From: Alistipes sp.
GTDB taxonomy: Bacteria > Bacteroidota > Bacteroidia > Bacteroidales > Rikenellaceae
Direction: 5' to 3'
Assembly (NCBI GenBank): GCA_017628595.1
Contig: JAGBYV010000094.1
Span: 1-10,242, forward strand
Length of the DNA: 10,242 bases
Below the pieces are notes generated by a model. The model was given only the letters and a program-made list of their open reading frames with translations, searched no databases and was not told the origin of the DNA. Shown in pieces: positions 1 through 10,164 of this stretch (position 1 is its first letter; every line of letters begins with the position of its first letter). The position numbers and the translations under genes were made by a program.

Positions 1-398
1 CTGCGTGTGGCGACGATGATCCCGCAGATACTCCCTCTGCTTATGGTACGCCTACTGCTACTTATATCTACAGAGGTACGGTTACCGACGAAGAGGGTAA
101 TCCTATTAAAGATATAGATGTAGTGTTGCATGGGGTGATTGAGGGTTCCATGAATGCAAGTTTGGTTATTAAGACTGACAAAAATGGTGTTTTCCGCACT
201 GGATACCTCAATACGTCGCAGACATGGGTGGAAACTATTGATTTTGTCGATCGTGATGGCGAGGCTAATGGAGGTGACTTTGAGAGTCAGACACTTGAAG
301 TAAAAGATTTGGATTCTAAGAAAGTGACCGAAGGCAGTGGCTGGTATCAGGGAGAATTCGAAGTGCAAGCCAATGTCCAACTTGAAAAGAAAGAGTAA
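1..398 (+). CDS. Putative lipoprotein of the rSAM/lipoprotein system (5' end missing)
   Basis: The reading frame is open from the window edge (first full codon at 3) to TAA at 396-398, giving 131 visible residues. It opens with A-C-G-D-D-D-P. The Cys fits a lipobox Cys, so nearly all of the mature protein is visible and the signal peptide lies outside the window. The acidic DDD after Cys resembles the surface-export signal of Bacteroidetes lipoproteins, suggesting outer-membrane surface location (inference). Next come AYGTPTATYIYRGTV and DEEGNPIKDIDV, then KTDKNGVFRTGY, the pattern of a carboxypeptidase-regulatory-like beta-sandwich. The AYGTP-ATY head and the downstream radical SAM partner match my memory of the Bacteroidetes family TIGR04134 (lipoprotein with rSAM). 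There is no Cys beyond the lipobox. The gene shares one base with the next one (TAATG), so translation is probably coupled. Function is unknown; a search of the complete gene against TIGR04134 would settle the family. Confidence 0.8.
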   Translation, partial: ACGDDDPADTPSAYGTPTATYIYRGTVTDEEGNPIKDIDVVLHGVIEGSMNASLVIKTDKNGVFRTGYLNTSQTWVETIDFVDRDGEANGGDFESQTLEVKDLDSKKVTEGSGWYQGEFEVQANVQLEKKE

Positions 399-1471
399 TG
401 AGCGGTAAATCACTCTCGTTGCGTCGTCGTCTGGCTTTGGAGGTGTGGCGACAAATGGAGAAGAAGCGTGTGCAGGAGCATACGCTTCGTCAACTTTTTT
501 GGGAGTGTACGTTGCGTTGCAATCTTAATTGCAGGCATTGTGGTAGCGATTGTAGGGCATCTTCATCACAAAGCGATATGCCTTTGGAGGATTTCCTTAA
601 AGTGCTTGACCAAATATCTCCGCACGTTCAGCCACATAGTGTTTTTGTCGTTATTACGGGAGGCGAACCGCTGATGCGAACCGACCTGGAGCAATGTGGT
701 CGTGCTATATATGAACGAGGTTTTGCGTGGGGTATGGTGACTAATGGCCTGGCAATGACCCCCAAGCGTTATCAGGCGTTGCGAGCTGCGGGAATGCATA
801 CGGCAACAGTTAGCTTGGACGGTTTGTGCGAGGAACATAACTTTATGCGAGGCAATAAGCAGAGTTATACTCGTGCTATTGATGCCCTGCGAATGATGGG
901 AGCCGATGAGGGCTTTGTATTCGATGTGGTCACCTGTGTGAATAGTCGCAACATTAAGCAATTAGATGAGATAAAAGAGGTGTTAGTAGGGATAGGCGTA
1001 AAAGCATGGCGCCTCTTTACCATCTTTCCGTCCGGTCGTGCTGCAACAGATGATTCTCTGCAATTGTCGGCCGAGGAGTTTCGCTTTTTGATGGATTATA
1101 TCAAAACAAACCGCGCCAACGAGACCCGAATCCGCCTATCTTATGGATGTGAGGGCTTCTTGGGCAATTATGAGGGTGATGTGCGAGATCACTTTTTTGC
1201 GTGCAATGCTGGTGTAAGTGTGGGTTCGGTTTTGGCCGACGGAGCAATATCGGCTTGTTCGAGTATTCGAGCCAATTATCATCAAGGAAATATATATCAA
1301 GATGATTTTTGGGAGGTATGGCAAACCAAGTTTGAGAAATATCGCAATCGAGATTGGATGCGAATAGGTAAATGTGCAACTTGCTCCGTGTTCCGCTATT
1401 GTCAAGGAAATGGAATGCACTTGCGCGATGATGATGGGCAGTTGATGCTATGCCATCTGGATAGATTATAA
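398..1471 (+). CDS. Radical SAM enzyme with SPASM-like C-terminus, rSAM/lipoprotein system
   Basis: This 357-residue protein has the radical SAM cluster motif CNLNCRHC (C41-x3-C45-x2-C48, with extra cysteines C37 and C52), the SAM-contacting GGEP at 88-91 and further barrel motifs (MVTNGLAM, VSLDG). The C-terminus looks like a SPASM domain that binds auxiliary Fe-S clusters: C269-x12-G282-x4-C287, then C326-x2-C329-x5-C335, and C352. The sixth canonical SPASM cysteine, three residues after C335, is replaced by glycine (CQGNG). Such enzymes usually modify peptides or proteins oxidatively. Pairing with the lipoprotein immediately upstream agrees with TIGR04133 (rSAM enzyme, rSAM/lipoprotein system, from memory). 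I infer that the lipoprotein or a related envelope protein is the substrate; the chemistry is unknown. The ATG overlaps the upstream stop codon, which fixes the start. A hairpin terminator follows four bases after the stop. Confidence 0.88.
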   Translation: MSGKSLSLRRRLALEVWRQMEKKRVQEHTLRQLFWECTLRCNLNCRHCGSDCRASSSQSDMPLEDFLKVLDQISPHVQPHSVFVVITGGEPLMRTDLEQCGRAIYERGFAWGMVTNGLAMTPKRYQALRAAGMHTATVSLDGLCEEHNFMRGNKQSYTRAIDALRMMGADEGFVFDVVTCVNSRNIKQLDEIKEVLVGIGVKAWRLFTIFPSGRAATDDSLQLSAEEFRFLMDYIKTNRANETRIRLSYGCEGFLGNYEGDVRDHFFACNAGVSVGSVLADGAISACSSIRANYHQGNIYQDDFWEVWQTKFEKYRNRDWMRIGKCATCSVFRYCQGNGMHLRDDDGQLMLCHLDRL

Positions 1472-1474
1472 TAA

Positions 1475-1505
1475 AAAAGGTTGCCTCTCGCAAGGGCAAC
1501 CTTTT
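1475..1505. terminator. Bidirectional intrinsic terminator between convergent genes
   Basis: An 11-bp perfect stem (1475-1485 with 1495-1505, core GGTTGCC/GGCAACC) encloses a 9-base loop. It is flanked by an A run at 1473-1478 and ends in TTTT at 1502-1505, so it can end transcripts from both sides. It lies between the radical SAM stop (1471) and the stop of the convergent transporter gene (1516) and serves both operons. Confidence 0.88.
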
Positions 1506-1515
1506 CTATTGTGTA

Positions 1516-2958
1516 TTACAGTTTAATCGGCTTATACTGTGGCACAAAGGTCTTCATCGCCATCCAGCTTATAAGATATGCCACGGCACAGAACGAGAAG
1601 GCGATCATATAGCCTGCTTCGATGCCCGTGTAACCCATAAACGACATGTTGCTCAGCTCGGCATAGTCGAACAGACGACCGGCACCCATCTGTATGCAGA
1701 ACGAGCCCACGCCACCGGCCATACCGCCGATGCCTGTGATTGTTGCAATCATCGACTTGGGGAACATATCGCCAACGGTAGAGAAGATATTTGCCGACCA
1801 CGACTGGTGGGCTGCAGCAGCGATACCGATGAAGACAATGGGGAACCAGTAAGAGTACTGCGACAGAGGCTGTGCCAATAGTGCAAACAGGGGGAAGAAT
1901 GCGAAAATCAGCATCGCGCGCATACGTCCTGCATAGGGGTTCATCTTATACTTTTCGATAAAGATCGTAGGCAGGTAACCGCCCAGTACAGAGATCATTA
2001 CGATAAGATACAGCACGCCCAATGCCAGCTGGAACTCGAAACTTGTCGATGACATTCCGCAGGCGTTCTTCAGGTACGAGGGCATCCAGAACAGATAGAA
2101 CCACCACACTCCATCGGCAATAGCCTTACCCGAGATGAAGGCCCACGTCTGGCGGTAGCCAAAGCACTGCCACAGCGACACCTTGGGTGCGGCAGCCTTC
2201 TCCTTAGCATCACGCTCGGCAGCAAGGCGCTCCTCCTCGCTGTCGGAGTTGATATACTCCAGCTCAGCGGCATTTACCTTGGGGTTCTGATCAGGTTTCT
2301 TATACATAAACTGCCAGAAGCCCATCCAGATAAATCCCAGCGCACCGATGATGATAAAGGCGGCTTCCCAGCCAAACTTGGCGGCGAGGGTGGGGATGGT
2401 GAATGGAGCAAGCAGTGCACCGACGGTAGTACCCGCATTGAAGATACTTGTTGCGTACGCACGGTCCTTCTTGGGGAAGTACTCGGCTGTGGCCTTGATG
2501 GCAGCGGGGAAGTTACCCGCCTCACCGATAGCCAGCACACATCGGGCCATGATGAAGAGCGTGAGCGAGATATGGGCTATGCGAGCCACCAGATCCACGT
2601 TGCCGATGGCTGCACGCAGAGCCTCCGCATCGGGCAGACCCACGGCCCACTCGGTCACAACGCCGCATAATGAGTGTACGCAGGCGCCGATTGACCATAT
2701 GAAGATGCTCCACATATAACCCTTCTTGGTATCCAGCTTATCCACTATACGACCGGCGAAGAGCATACCGATAGCGTAGACCAGCGAGAAGATACCCGTA
2801 ACGAGTCCGTAGTGGGCATTTGTCCAGTGAAATTCGGGGCGAATGAAATCCTCCCATGTAAGTGAGAGCACCTGACGGTCGAGGTAGTTGATTGTCGTTG
2901 CGAAGAAGAGCAGCGAACAGATCACCCATCGATAGGAGGTAGGTTTGTTTTGATTCAT
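1516..2958 (-). CDS. exuT: MFS hexuronate transporter, ExuT-like (anion:cation symporter family)
   Basis: This 480-residue membrane protein has the features of the MFS anion:cation symporter (ACS) group. These are NYLDRQ in the first helix (24-29), the loop GRIVDKLDTKKG (69-80), the ACS-like stretch GEAGNFPAAIKATAEYF (145-161) and the second-half motif DGVWWFYLFWMPSYL (282-296), with about 12 hydrophobic helices in all. It should import a hexuronate such as glucuronate or galacturonate with a cation across the inner membrane. The assignment rests on sequence style plus its operon with kdgK and eda, the KDG branch enzymes. It is somewhat longer than E. coli ExuT. The excess is an extra stretch around 100-135 (VTEWAVGLPD onward) before the GEAGNFP helix and a charged central loop at about 225-260. 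It is the last gene of its operon, 51 bases after eda. Another sugar acid as substrate is possible. Confidence 0.82.
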   Translation of the reverse strand: MNQNKPTSYRWVICSLLFFATTINYLDRQVLSLTWEDFIRPEFHWTNAHYGLVTGIFSLVYAIGMLFAGRIVDKLDTKKGYMWSIFIWSIGACVHSLCGVVTEWAVGLPDAEALRAAIGNVDLVARIAHISLTLFIMARCVLAIGEAGNFPAAIKATAEYFPKKDRAYATSIFNAGTTVGALLAPFTIPTLAAKFGWEAAFIIIGALGFIWMGFWQFMYKKPDQNPKVNAAELEYINSDSEEERLAAERDAKEKAAAPKVSLWQCFGYRQTWAFISGKAIADGVWWFYLFWMPSYLKNACGMSSTSFEFQLALGVLYLIVMISVLGGYLPTIFIEKYKMNPYAGRMRAMLIFAFFPLFALLAQPLSQYSYWFPIVFIGIAAAAHQSWSANIFSTVGDMFPKSMIATITGIGGMAGGVGSFCIQMGAGRLFDYAELSNMSFMGYTGIEAGYMIAFSFCAVAYLISWMAMKTFVPQYKPIKL

Positions 2959-3009
2959 ATTTCGGTATTTTTTGTGTTTTCGATTTACTCCGTAGTCCCT
3001 GTTGTGGGG

Positions 3010-3678
3010 TTATCGTGCCTCGGCGATATAGGCCAATGCCTCGCGACACTTTTCTGCTATTTTACCCCACTCCTTACCTGCAATTATCTCCTTGGGGAAG
3101 AGCTTTGAACCCATGCCCACAACCGTAGCGCCGGCCTTCATCCACGAGGTGAGGTTCTCGCGTGTAGGCTCCACGGCGCCTGTGGCCATAATCATCGACC
3201 AGGGCATAGGTGCCAGCACATTCTTTACAAACGAGGGGCCTCCCACCTCGCCTGCGGGGAATATCTTCACAAGTTCGCAGCCAGCCTCCTGTGCATCTCC
3301 GATCTCTGTAACGGAGCCACAGCCTGGGGTGTAGGGCACCTGGCGACGGTTGCACACCTTTGCCACCTCAGCATTGAACATGGGACCTACAACAAAGTTG
3401 GCTCCCAGCTGCATGTAGAGTGCTGCCGTGGGTGCATCCACCACGCTGCCAACGCCAAGAATCATCTCGGGACACTCCTCGGCCACCCAGCGGCTCAGCG
3501 CAGCAAAGGTCTCGTGGGCGAAGTCGCCACGGTTGGTGAACTCGAAGGCGCGAACACCACCCTCGTAACAAGCCTTGATGACCTGCTTCGAGGTCTCCAC
3601 GTCGGCGTTATAGAATACGGGGACCATTCCCGTATGTTTCATAGTCTGAATGACCTCTATCTTTGAAAATCGTGCCAT
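3010..3678 (-). CDS. eda: 2-dehydro-3-deoxyphosphogluconate (KDPG) aldolase
   Basis: This 222-residue cytoplasmic class I aldolase cleaves KDPG into pyruvate and glyceraldehyde 3-phosphate. Visible signatures are the general acid/base Glu in RAFEFTNR (E46, near the position known for E. coli Eda), [12 protein letters not shown] (115-126, the family's P-G-x-x-T-E substrate loop, here with Cys after PG), the Schiff-base lysine in LVKIFPA (K138) and the phosphate-binding [10 protein letters not shown] region. The length is normal for the family. It lies between the KDG kinase, 29 bases upstream in transcription, and the hexuronate transporter, 51 bases downstream, so it most likely works in hexuronate breakdown. 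Eda homologues can also cleave 4-hydroxy-2-oxoglutarate, and a KDPGal-type activity cannot be excluded from sequence. Confidence 0.92.
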
Positions 3679-3707
3679 ATCTCTTTTGTCTTTATTTTTC
3701 TTGTTTG

Positions 3708-4745
3708 CTATCTTGCCACACGGCCCGAGCCATCGCCCTTCATCAGGTTCTCCACCTCGGCTACACTCACGAGGTTGAAATCGCCATAGATCGTATGCTT
3801 CAAGGCCGATGCTGCCACAGCGAAATGTAGTGCTCGCTCATCGTCCTTATACTCTCTCAGTCCGTAGATCAATCCACCCATAAATGAGTCGCCACCGCCC
3901 ACGCGGTCAACGATGTGTGTGAGATCGTAGCGGGGTGATGAGTAGAGCTTCTCGCCATTGAAGAGTACGCCTCCCCAGGTGTTGTGGTTGGCATTTATCG
4001 AGCCACGCAGTGTGATGATAACCTTCTTTGCGCGGGGGAAGCGAGCCATGATCTGACGGCAAACGCTCTCAAATGCGCCCTGCTCCACCTCGCCGGCAGT
4101 CTTGGCAGCATCGAAGCCCTCGGGCTTGATGCCAAAGACCTTCTCTGCATCCTCCTCATTGCCCAGCACCACGTCGCAACACTCTACCAGTGCGGGCATA
4201 ACCTCTGCAGCCGTCTTGCCATATTTCCAGAGGTTCTTGCGATAGTTGATGTCGCACGATACGGTGATACCCATTCTGTTTGCCACCTTGCAGGCCTCCA
4301 GACACACCTCGGCAGCCGATGCACTGATGGCGGGGGTAATACCCGTGAAATGAAACCAGTCGGCACCCTCGAATACACTCTCCCAGTCGATCATACCCAC
4401 CTCGATGGTTGAGATCGATGAGTGTGCACGGTCGTAAACAACCTTGCTCGGGCGTGCTATAGCGCCTGTCTCGAGGAAGTAGATGCCCAGACGCTCACCT
4501 CCATAGACTATCTTCGATGTGCCAACGCCCCACTTGCGAAGCTCTGAGACGCACGCGGCAGCGATGTCGTTCTCAGGCAGGCGTGTTACGAATTCGGTCT
4601 CAACGCCATAGTTTGCCAGCGACACGGCTACGTTTGCCTCGCCGCCACCGTAAGTTGCGGTGAGTGAATTGCTCTGCGCAAAACGCAGGTTGTCGGGTGT
4701 TGCCAGGCGAAGCATTATCTCGCCAAAAGTGACTACTTTTTTCAT
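3708..4745 (-). CDS. kdgK: 2-dehydro-3-deoxygluconate (KDG) kinase, PfkB family
   Basis: This 345-residue PfkB/ribokinase-family sugar kinase should phosphorylate KDG with ATP to give KDPG for the aldolase encoded next. Evidence includes the N-terminal [17 protein letters not shown], the glycine-rich substrate site [15 protein letters not shown] (33-47), [10 protein letters not shown] (164-173) and the catalytic anion-hole motif [12 protein letters not shown] (280-291, base D286), a G-G-G-D variant of the usual G-A-G-D. I chose ATG at 4745. A TTG at 4772 would add nine residues, but the family consensus starts at [11 protein letters not shown] and a promoter-like element lies just upstream. 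It is first in the operon kdgK-eda-exuT. Fructokinase or another PfkB sugar kinase is the main alternative, made unlikely by the eda neighbour. Confidence 0.9.
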
Positions 4746-4787
4746 ATTGTAATTCTCAATTATTTTCAACAAAATGCATTAGATATA

Positions 4788-7975: not shown

Positions 7976-9088
7976 ATGAACGATCGCCTGAAACTATCGT
8001 GGCCGGGATATAAGATCCTCGACCGTTACATATTGCGCAAGTTCCTGGGAACCTATGCCTTCGCCATTGCCATGATTACGGTCATCCTGGTGGTGTTCGA
8101 CTACGCCGAGCGAGTGGATAACTTCACCGAGTCGCACGCGCCGTGGTCGGCCATTATCTTCGACTACTACATCAACTTCATTCCCGACTTCATCAATCAG
8201 TTCAGTGGTCTGTTTACCTTCATCTCGGTGATCTTCTTCACCTCGAAGATGGCCTACCAGACCGAGATTATCGCCATGCTCTCGGGTGGAGTGAGCTTCC
8301 GTCGTCTGATGTGGCCCTACTTCCTGGGCTCACTCTTTATCGCGATGCTCTCGCTTGCGCTCAACCTCTGGGTGATTCCCGAGTCGCAGGTGGCCTGCGT
8401 AAAATTCCGCCAGACCTACTTCAAGAAGTATAAGAACGAACAGTACGACCGCCACATCTATCGCCAGGTGGCCCCCGGCGAGTTTGTCTATGTGCGCGGA
8501 TTCAATACCACCAATAAAGCCTCTTACCTTGCCATCGAGCGCTATGATGGCACAGCCATCTCCGCTACGCTCGAGGCTTCGGACGTCTCGGTTGATCCCG
8601 AGACAGGTCGCTGGAAGGCTCAGCGCTACATCACGCGCCACATCGATGAGCAGGGCGTGGAGCACTTTGAGCAGCTGCGCGACCTGGATACGCTCATTAA
8701 CATCGACGTGAAGGAGCTGGGACGTATCGAGCAGACTGTATCGACGATGAAGATAGGCGAGTTGAACCGTTTCCTCGAGCAGCAACGCATCAAGGGCTCG
8801 GACTCAATCAATCTGATTGAGGTGGAGCGTCATACACGCTATGCCTATCCCTTCGCGACATTCATCCTTACGCTCATAGGCGTAGCACTCTCTTCGCGCA
8901 AGGTGCGCGGCGGCACGGGACTGCATATCGGTATTGGTATCGTGCTCTGCTTCTCGTACATCATGCTCAACCGTCTGTTTGAGGAGTTTGCCAAGAGTGG
9001 TGGCCTGCCTGTGATGCTGGCCGTATGGCTCCCCAATATCATATTCACACTGATTGCAATCTACCTTTACCGAAAAGCACCGAAATAA
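7976..9088 (+). CDS. LptF/LptG-family LPS export permease (YjgP/YjgQ)
   Basis: This 370-residue inner-membrane protein belongs to the YjgP/YjgQ family. Such proteins pair as LptF and LptG with the ATPase LptB to pull lipopolysaccharide from the inner membrane toward the outer membrane. The layout fits the family. Three N-terminal membrane helices lie at about 24-43, 62-92 and 113-134, with the coupling-helix stretch TEIIAMLSGGVSFRRL (96-111). A periplasmic beta-jellyroll domain follows (about 136-285), with three C-terminal helices at about 290-307, 315-334 and 344-365. The charged SSRKVRGGTG (306-315) lies between helices four and five. Whether it plays the LptF or LptG role is not decided by what I see. 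It starts ten bases after tgt, behind a purine-rich AGAGAAGAG that could act as a weak ribosome site, and its stop overlaps the start of mqnE by one base. Confidence 0.9.
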   Translation: MNDRLKLSWPGYKILDRYILRKFLGTYAFAIAMITVILVVFDYAERVDNFTESHAPWSAIIFDYYINFIPDFINQFSGLFTFISVIFFTSKMAYQTEIIAMLSGGVSFRRLMWPYFLGSLFIAMLSLALNLWVIPESQVACVKFRQTYFKKYKNEQYDRHIYRQVAPGEFVYVRGFNTTNKASYLAIERYDGTAISATLEASDVSVDPETGRWKAQRYITRHIDEQGVEHFEQLRDLDTLINIDVKELGRIEQTVSTMKIGELNRFLEQQRIKGSDSINLIEVERHTRYAYPFATFILTLIGVALSSRKVRGGTGLHIGIGIVLCFSYIMLNRLFEEFAKSGGLPVMLAVWLPNIIFTLIAIYLYRKAPK

Positions 9089-10164
9089 TGGAAAAGTGGG
9101 AAGATATACTCGTGCGTGTTGCCGATGGCGCACGCCTTTCGTCGGAAGAGGCCCTCACGCTGTGGCAGGATGCTCCGTTGTGGCGTCTTGCTGAGGTGGC
9201 CGTTGCCCGTAAGCGAAGAATAAGCGGCGACAAGGTCTTCTATAATAAGAACTTTCATATCGAGCCGACCAACGTATGCCTCTTTAATTGTAAGTTCTGC
9301 TCCTATCGTCGTCCGCGCGGCAGTGCCGAGGCGTGGGACTACTCGATCGAGGAGATGGAGGCAAAGGTGCGCTCTTTCGTAGGCAAGGGCGCAACGGAGA
9401 TGCACATCGTTGGAGGCGTTCACCCCGATCATACTATCGAGTTCTACTGCGAACTCATTCGACGCGTGAAGGCCATTCTGCCCGAGGCAGCCGTTAAGGC
9501 CTATACCGCCATCGAACTGTCGTATATGATCCGCAAGGCGGGACTCTCGGTAAGGGAGGGCTTGCAGATGCTGATTGATGCCGGCATGGAGGCTATACCC
9601 GGCGGTGGTGCCGAGATCTTCGATGAGACGGTGCGTCAGCAGATATGCCCCGATAAGGGCTCTACGCAGGAGTGGTTCGAGGTGCATCGTACGGCGCATG
9701 AGCTGGGACTCAAGACCAACGCTACAATGCTCTATGGCCACATCGAGAGTGTGGAGCACCGCATCGATCACTTGATGCGTCTTCGTGAGTTGCAGGACGT
9801 AACGGGTGGCTTTAATGCCTTCATCCCGCTGAAGTATCGCAACTATGGCAACTCGATGTCCGAGATTGGCGAGGTGCCTATCGTCGATGACCTGCGTACG
9901 CTGGCTATGAGTCGCCTGATACTGGACAACGTGCCCCACATCAAGGCCTATTGGGTGATGTATGGCAAGCAGACCACGGAGATGGCCCTGGCCTTTGGTG
10001 CTGACGACGTGGATGGCACAATCGAGGACTCTACGAAGATCTACTCCATGGCTGGTGCCGATGATCAGCGTCCCACGATGAGCGTGGAGGAGATGCACGC
10101 CATGGTTGCCCGCGTAGGCTTTAGAGCTGTGGAGCGCGACACACACTACAACGAAATAGCGTAA
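9088..10164 (+). CDS. mqnE: Aminofutalosine synthase (radical SAM, menaquinone biosynthesis)
   Basis: This 358-residue radical SAM enzyme should join the chorismate-derived MqnA product with SAM to make 6-amino-6-deoxyfutalosine, an early step of the futalosine route to menaquinone. The cluster motif is EPTNVCLFNCKFC (C64-x3-C68-x2-C71). Further signatures include HIVGGVHPD (106-114), AIPGGGAEIFDETVR (169-183), CPDK (187-190), TNATMLYGHIE (210-220), LRELQDVTGGFNAFIPL (232-248) and the tail motif AFGADDVDGTIEDS. TMLYGHIE with GGFNAFIPL favours MqnE over its relative MqnC, though a phylogeny would be decisive. I chose ATG at 9088, which overlaps the permease stop (TAATG). The upstream in-frame ATG at 9025 would add 21 residues lying inside the permease gene that do not look like the family. 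No other menaquinone gene is visible in the window. Confidence 0.92.
   Translation: MEKWEDILVRVADGARLSSEEALTLWQDAPLWRLAEVAVARKRRISGDKVFYNKNFHIEPTNVCLFNCKFCSYRRPRGSAEAWDYSIEEMEAKVRSFVGKGATEMHIVGGVHPDHTIEFYCELIRRVKAILPEAAVKAYTAIELSYMIRKAGLSVREGLQMLIDAGMEAIPGGGAEIFDETVRQQICPDKGSTQEWFEVHRTAHELGLKTNATMLYGHIESVEHRIDHLMRLRELQDVTGGFNAFIPLKYRNYGNSMSEIGEVPIVDDLRTLAMSRLILDNVPHIKAYWVMYGKQTTEMALAFGADDVDGTIEDSTKIYSMAGADDQRPTMSVEEMHAMVARVGFRAVERDTHYNEIA

Follow-up and report, generated by a model that had tools for sequence, protein, structure and literature searches.

A TIGR04133 radical SAM enzyme of Alistipes as a predicted splicease of lipoproteins with an X-Tyr-Gly-x-Pro motif

The gene pair at the start of the window

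The window analysed here is a stretch of 10,242 nucleotides from the genome of an Alistipes sp., and its first letter is base 1 of contig C69. Its first two genes encode a lipoprotein of family TIGR04134 and a radical S-adenosylmethionine (SAM) enzyme with a SPASM domain, of family TIGR04133 (Table 1). Since the lipoprotein bears the Tyr-Gly signal used by the likely kin of the enzyme, the same backbone splicing is predicted here: judging from sequence, the enzyme is probably a splicease that would excise tyramine at the X-Tyr-Gly(-x-Pro) site of the lipoprotein, leaving a reactive group on a protein of the cell envelope.

In profile searches the lipoprotein scored 92.8 bits against TIGR04134 (cut-off 39.8) and the adjoining enzyme, of 357 amino acids, scored 575.6 bits against TIGR04133 (cut-off 425), with its Radical_SAM and SPASM domains above the Pfam cut-offs. 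The first-pass annotation of this DNA, which had proposed these two families, was thus right on this point. NCBIfam already holds both families and their pairing, as rSAM_w_lipo and lipo_with_rSAM, and the window proteins agree with that listing in exceeding the curated cut-offs and in being adjacent. The listing differs from what is proposed here in treating the families as hypothetical equivalogs with no reaction, and TIGR04134 captures only part of the partners.

As the window begins at the first base of the contig, the lipoprotein frame lacks its 5' end, and only the last two residues of the lipobox (A-C) fall within it. Database protein P0126 (155 amino acids) is 100% identical across the window part and has 24 extra N-terminal residues. 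It has a lipoprotein signal peptide ending in LGFSAC, TIGR04134 is its sole family match (111.2 bits), and it carries no Nif11 or NHLP leader. The CGDDDP stretch after the lipobox was compared with the SDDDD consensus of Bacteroides fragilis given in a passage of PMC5080379; partners with CYGxP have no such stretch.

The TAA stop of the lipoprotein gene (396-398) and the ATG start of the enzyme gene (398-400) have one base in common, base 398, in agreement with the translational coupling described earlier. The claim that the pair has its own terminator also holds, as the stem at 1475-1505 has 12 pairs and the 50-nucleotide stretch 1466-1515 folds with a z of -6.5 relative to shuffled sequences. 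Scans of the window with Rfam and for tRNAs gave no matches.

The carboxypeptidase-regulatory-like fold that had been assigned to the lipoprotein is consistent with weak matches to PF13620 (23.8 bits, cut-off 32.3) and PF02369 (24.3 bits, cut-off 34.9); both are below the Pfam cut-offs and the domain is lacking in many partners. With AlphaFold2 the window lipoprotein was modelled at a mean pLDDT of 87.8 (residues 1-10 average 50, residues 11-20 average 77). Residues 13-17 (AYGTP) form a coil in this model, ahead of the first strand, which begins at residue 18. A fold search with the model returned weak catechol-dioxygenase and transthyretin-like matches, which have no functional meaning.

Table 1. 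Features of the lipoprotein and enzyme gene pair, with positions in the window
Feature	Position	Strand	Details and basis
TIGR04134 lipoprotein	3..398	+	131 residues in window; 24 N-terminal residues missing relative to P0126; profile match
Lipobox cysteine codon (C2 of the window frame), predicted lipidation site	6..8	+	LGFSAC in P0126; aligned cysteine
GDDD directly after the cysteine	9..20	+	Possible likeness to acidic Bacteroidetes lipoprotein export signal; SDDDD consensus of B. fragilis in a passage of PMC5080379
AYGTP (A13-P17), predicted splice site Ala-Tyr-Gly plus common x-Pro	39..53	+	Motif survey; coil in model
Beta-sandwich domain (carboxypeptidase-regulatory/Ig-like)	54..395	+	Weak family matches; model
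TAATG, stop/start overlap	396..400	+	Sequence
TIGR04133 radical SAM/SPASM enzyme, predicted leaderless splicease	398..1471	+	357 residues; profile match; tree
CxxxCxxC (C41-C48), then G49-S50	518..547	+	CGS common to TIGR04103 and TIGR03913 enzymes; residue comparison
SPASM cysteine region, C269 to C352	1202..1453	+	Pfam match; residue comparison
Terminator-like hairpin 3' of the enzyme gene	1475..1505	+	12-pair stem; fold compared with shuffles

The pairing of the two families is conserved, as the earlier note had supposed. Among 198 genomes of the order, TIGR04133 was found in 51 at E<=1e-60 (47 above the cut-off), and TIGR04134 was above the cut-off in 28, all of them within the 51 enzyme genomes (hypergeometric P 2e-20). 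The gap between the edges of the paired matches (n=23) was at most 50 bases in 17 cases, 65 and 76 in two and 380 to 1284 in four. When 296 genomes were sampled from the phylum, the enzyme was present in the window's own genome and in one of the 295 others (L184), where the partner lies directly upstream with EYG, without the Pro and without a lipobox.

The X-Tyr-Gly-x-Pro motif in the partners

The motif was surveyed in 89 enzyme loci, namely the window and L033-L120, L001 having been dropped as a duplicate of the window. A script required a lipobox-type frame with YG after the cysteine, ending no more than 1.2 kb upstream of the enzyme, and found it in 62/89 loci, one of which (L066, LamG-type) is probably spurious. 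Upstream partners missed by the script were plain on reading in the window, L034, L077 and L090, and in five loci the partner lies 3' of the enzyme (L058, L086, L088, L093 and L112). In total, a linked secreted protein or lipoprotein with YG(xP) was found at 70/89 loci; three loci (L074, L075 and L117) are cut by contig ends. In three of the downstream partners (L058, L088 and L093) AQYGAP or AQYGSW stands right after a signal peptide that has no lipobox cysteine, so that XYG looks to be at the apparent mature N-terminus.

The script recorded 85 YGxP sites, which include a few probable chance cases such as L066. The residue X at these sites is C in 21 (cysteine directly before YG), M in 15, E in 15, K in 12, V in 9, L in 6, A in 4 and S, N and Y in one each. 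The residue ahead of the Pro is T in 33/85, and the Tyr is placed 1 to 17 residues after the lipobox cysteine in 55/85, close to the lipid anchor. The motif of the window is AYGTP, with AYG at 39-47.

The motif exceeds chance by three controls. First, the 39 TIGR04134 matches above the cut-off were not selected by motif, and YGxP is present in 35/39 and YG in 38/39; shuffling 38 of the 39 gave a mean of 0.7. Second, among TIGR04134-type matches in frames of at most 300 amino acids, YGxP occurs in 48/60 from enzyme genomes versus 1/8 from genomes without the enzyme, and the lone exception (G018) has a C-terminal remnant of TIGR04133 directly behind the motif frame. Third, a YGxP no more than 60 residues from the cysteine is present in 65/102 predicted lipoprotein frames beside the enzyme versus 3/51 elsewhere in the same loci (Fisher p 7e-13). 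Alignments A2 and A4 and the database search for relatives were seeded with YGxP rows; the resulting motif count of 120/120 is therefore biased and was not used as evidence.

These controls bear on the idea that the motif is independent of the enzyme, being a lipoprotein sorting signal or the mark of shared ancestry in one lineage. One order does supply most of the loci, and in L078 a lipoprotein encoded apart from the enzyme bears a motif near its cysteine (CTTDYGNP). Nevertheless the scarcity of YGxP in lipoproteins away from the enzyme and in genomes without it makes such independence very improbable, as does the presence of the motif beside the enzyme in other phyla: Spirochaetota (SCYGMP), Hydrogenedentota (VYGVP), Chloroflexi and, as CYGVM, a deltaproteobacterial metagenome-assembled genome (MAG).

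Thirteen partners of different make retain the motif without the beta domain, and some have just 53 to 107 residues. Several of them consist almost wholly of a signal peptide and a cysteine with the motif KYGVP, MYGVP or VYGSP. Ten of the thirteen, short or coiled-coil, were scanned; none was above the Pfam or NCBIfam cut-offs and XYGxP was kept, and L070 and L090 showed a weak match to the start of TIGR04134. Such partners are of interest for a further explanation, in which YG(xP) serves solely as a tag for docking and the modification is made elsewhere, for instance in the beta domain or on a cysteine. In some partners the Pro is missing or the motif occurs several times, as might be so for a tag. 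However, the shortest partners (L090, 53 amino acids; L082, 60; L052, 71) scarcely exceed signal peptide, cysteine and motif, so that little besides the motif is left to modify, and the invariant columns of alignment A4 are only Y14, G15, P17 and G62, of which the motif columns are invariant through selection. We consider a mere docking role rather improbable.

The enzyme had also been described as devoted to a single envelope lipoprotein, and this does not apply in general. In seven genomes, eight motif-bearing TIGR04134-type frames are located on contigs without an enzyme match, and some enzyme loci have two to four motif-bearing frames. Moreover, co-located partners can differ in X, as with KYG and MYG in L052 and L070. 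In two genomes of the same family as the window (G103 and G187), the motif lipoprotein and the enzyme are separated by another lipoprotein, which has no YGxP (L040, 959-1489, and L043, 912-1466).

Likely kinship of the enzyme with known spliceases

PlpX-type spliceases are radical SAM enzymes that, according to passages of PMC10533398 and PMC11002830, excise a tyramine unit from the peptide backbone at XYG; in the same passages a ten-residue tag is enough for PlpXY and the leader is dispensable. PlpX was studied together with PlpY in a passage of PMC11002830. These enzymes belong with the nif11-class peptide radical SAM maturase 3 family (TIGR04103), which resembles the window system in being a SPASM radical SAM enzyme with an XYG(xP) substrate, in its clade in the best tree and in sharing G49, S50, H147, T179, W204, R263 and C269 with the window enzyme. 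It differs in its substrate, since that of the window is an envelope lipoprotein with a signal peptide and no Nif11/NHLP leader. The window enzyme scored 128.2 bits against TIGR04103 (cut-off 725), so it is not filed as a member, and 113.7 bits against TIGR03913 (cut-off 591.75).

The precursors of these enzymes show the same signal. Upstream of a Nostoc TIGR04103 gene there is a Nif11 precursor ending in SIALYGLPPELF, with XYG within LYGLPP. Its relative P0295 of Pleurocapsa sp. PCC 7319 has AVAAMYGVVFP after GG, which matches a tag in a passage of PMC10533398 save for an engineered Gly. Among 63 relatives of the Nif11 precursor, YG was found in the last 35 residues of 58 and YGxP in 32. Beside an Agathobacter rectalis radical SAM gene (L183), an unannotated upstream open reading frame (ORF) of 35 residues (1309-1416), ending in GPVMYGTGVRM, is a candidate short splicease precursor. 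The GDL motif peptide-associated maturase (TIGR03913) falls in the same clade of the best tree, and two (L131 and L132) of the five DUF1843 peptides beside TIGR03913-type enzymes have PYG near the N-terminus, with none in the other three; its substrates differ in being small, cytosolic-looking peptides. A clear XYG peptide was not found beside the enzyme of L143.

The enzyme tree was built with IQ-TREE from 57 SPASM enzymes and 340 columns and was midpoint rooted. It took 33 of the 89 enzyme loci and two plasmid records (35 TIGR04133 rows) and left out L147, then L119 and L120 as short and divergent, and also L140, L141, L144-L146 and L148-L158, which were near-copies or had long branches. The outgroups were few, with 11 other rows: MftC, PqqE, NirJ, AhbD/NirJ2-like, TIGR04053, TIGR04347 and one Indioceanicola enzyme. 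The 35 TIGR04133 rows are monophyletic (100/100), and the row closest to the window enzyme is L062, from an Alistipes MAG (68 to 70% identity). A branch with support 98/89 joins TIGR04133 with TIGR04103, the TIGR03913-type enzymes, the Agathobacter enzyme and L143, to the exclusion of the other SPASM rows, and this grouping is retained in all five leave-out trees (94/96, 100/99, 96/87, 100/99 and 67/18). Among the residues that TIGR04133 has in common with the spliceases, G49, S50, H147, T179, W204, A215, R263 and C269 are present in no more than 36% of the 11 other rows. With few outgroup SPASM families sampled, kinship of TIGR04133 with the spliceases is no more than likely.

A search of PDB sequences with the enzyme gave six distant radical SAM enzymes. 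A fold search with its model placed SkfB, BlsE, SuiB, anSME and PqqE near the top, a result that does not tell the possible chemistries apart. The enzyme may in principle recognise XYG(xP) and perform another radical reaction, such as an oxidation, a bond cleavage or a crosslink of the Tyr side chain. PqqE is a SPASM enzyme that acts on a Tyr of a ribosomal peptide without excision of tyramine. MftC does likewise, as described in a passage of PMC8326336. Moreover the branch of TIGR04133 in the tree stands apart and is long, at 1.51 changes per column. In the best tree, nevertheless, the splicease clade includes neither MftC nor PqqE, and approximately unbiased (AU) tests of alternative sisters of TIGR04133 gave p 0.0027 for MftC, which is rejected, and p 0.049 for the heme/NirJ group. 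In addition the Gly is as constant as the Tyr in the 39 TIGR04134 matches (YG in 38), which fits backbone splicing at YG. Such other chemistry appears unlikely to us, though it is the most plausible of the alternatives.

A number of observations speak against the enzyme being a splicease of linked lipoproteins. A TIGR04133+PqqE clade was not rejected (AU p 0.198), the support of the splicease clade is only 67/18 once the Agathobacter and L143 rows are removed, and the profile scores of the window enzyme for AhbD (131.3) and TIGR04053 (129.3) are as near as that for TIGR04103. Two of the three GDL precursors of L131 have MYA in place of YG. No PlpY-type or RRE gene was seen beside the window enzyme, which is followed by the terminator and a convergent major facilitator superfamily (MFS) gene; the region 5' of the lipoprotein is beyond the contig end and the relatives were not surveyed systematically for such a gene. 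A linked motif partner was not found at 16/89 loci (L053, L063-L069, L071, L072, L083, L085, L089, L098, L119 and L120); L053 has a C-terminal partner fragment only, and in L072 a lipoprotein frame with TMYGGP located 3.7 kb downstream was not counted. These loci include L063 and L067, rumen relatives that adjoin the window and L062 in the tree, and among 12 such genomes checked TIGR04134 was above the cut-off in that of L062 alone. In relatives such as L063 and L067 either the substrates are located elsewhere or the function has drifted.

Four of the rumen relatives (L063, L064, L066 and L068) have a secreted LamG-type frame with Phe/Tyr-Gly-x-Pro directly upstream of the enzyme. The LamG proteins were set aside as substrates, as three of the four (L063, L064 and L068) have Phe for Tyr and only L066 has Tyr.

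Predicted reaction and neighbouring genes

We propose that co-translation of the overlapping genes would keep the enzyme close to its precursor, and that in the cytoplasm the motif would be read directly on the N-terminal part of the prolipoprotein while this is unfolded, without a leader of the kind found in ribosomally synthesised and post-translationally modified peptides (RiPPs) and without a PlpY helper. This part would enter the active site, a radical would be begun at the Tyr, the tyramine part would be expelled and the remaining carbonyl would be joined to X. Lipidation and export of the product, likely to the cell surface, would come afterwards. The keto group would then end near the membrane anchor, or directly on the anchor residue where the partner has CYGxP.

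The step of which we are least confident is the use of the resulting alpha-ketoamide as a tethered electrophile, for example a protease trap whose target is set by X. By analogy a surface protease trap is the function we find most likely, doubtful as it is, because spliced peptides are reported as protease inhibitors in passages of PMC10373908 and PMC11117315. At CYGxP sites the group would hardly be accessible to a protease, so the electrophile would have to serve some other purpose there.

Taken further, and with somewhat less than even confidence, we suggest that in Bacteroidales and scattered phyla a single leaderless radical SAM enzyme may splice several envelope lipoproteins into lipid-anchored, surface-displayed alpha-ketoamides, and that in a subclade with A-C-Y-G-T-P the rebuilt residue may be the lipid-bearing cysteine. 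To our knowledge there is no example of a lipoprotein anchor with a rebuilt lipid-bearing cysteine.

The first-pass annotation had known of no demonstrated substrate or chemistry for the pair. This agrees with our literature search, whose coverage did not extend to Scott et al. 2022 and Lakis et al. 2022 and which found no paper that deals with TIGR04133, with TIGR04134 or with lipoproteins as targets of a splicease. From XYG(xP) and the kinship with spliceases, both a substrate site and a chemistry can now be proposed. It is conceivable, though we would rather expect otherwise, that Scott et al. 2022 (Chem) already include the TIGR04133 family among their 939 predicted spliceases. If the prediction is true, a family pair that is hypothetical in NCBIfam would gain a reaction and its site in the substrate, together with a test by mass in a single step (loss of 135.07 Da). 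Backbone splicing would also extend from small natural products to the cell envelope of common Bacteroidales, a reach that follows from the presence of the enzyme in 51/198 genomes of the order versus 1/295 other genomes of the phylum sample. Moreover a leaderless one-gene splicease would be a simpler tool than PlpXY for introducing a reactive ketone into a protein; in a table passage of PMC10533398, PlpXY tags in FtsZ were accepted in 2/16 combinations of tag and site.

On a Tropicibacter plasmid (L133, 2674-5482) a TIGR03913-like radical SAM gene, below the cut-off, overlaps a gene encoding a trypsin-like peptidase.

Downstream of the pair, on the opposite strand of the window (1516-4772, -), adjoining genes encode an MFS transporter, a KDPG/KHG aldolase (above the NCBIfam cut-off) and a PfkB-type sugar kinase, which is an ordinary set for 2-keto-3-deoxy-sugar catabolism. 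Further along (7976-10164, +) are genes encoding an LptG-like permease and the aminofutalosine synthase MqnE (above the cut-off). Here a second TAATG occurs, in which the ATG at 9088 overlaps the LptG stop by one base.
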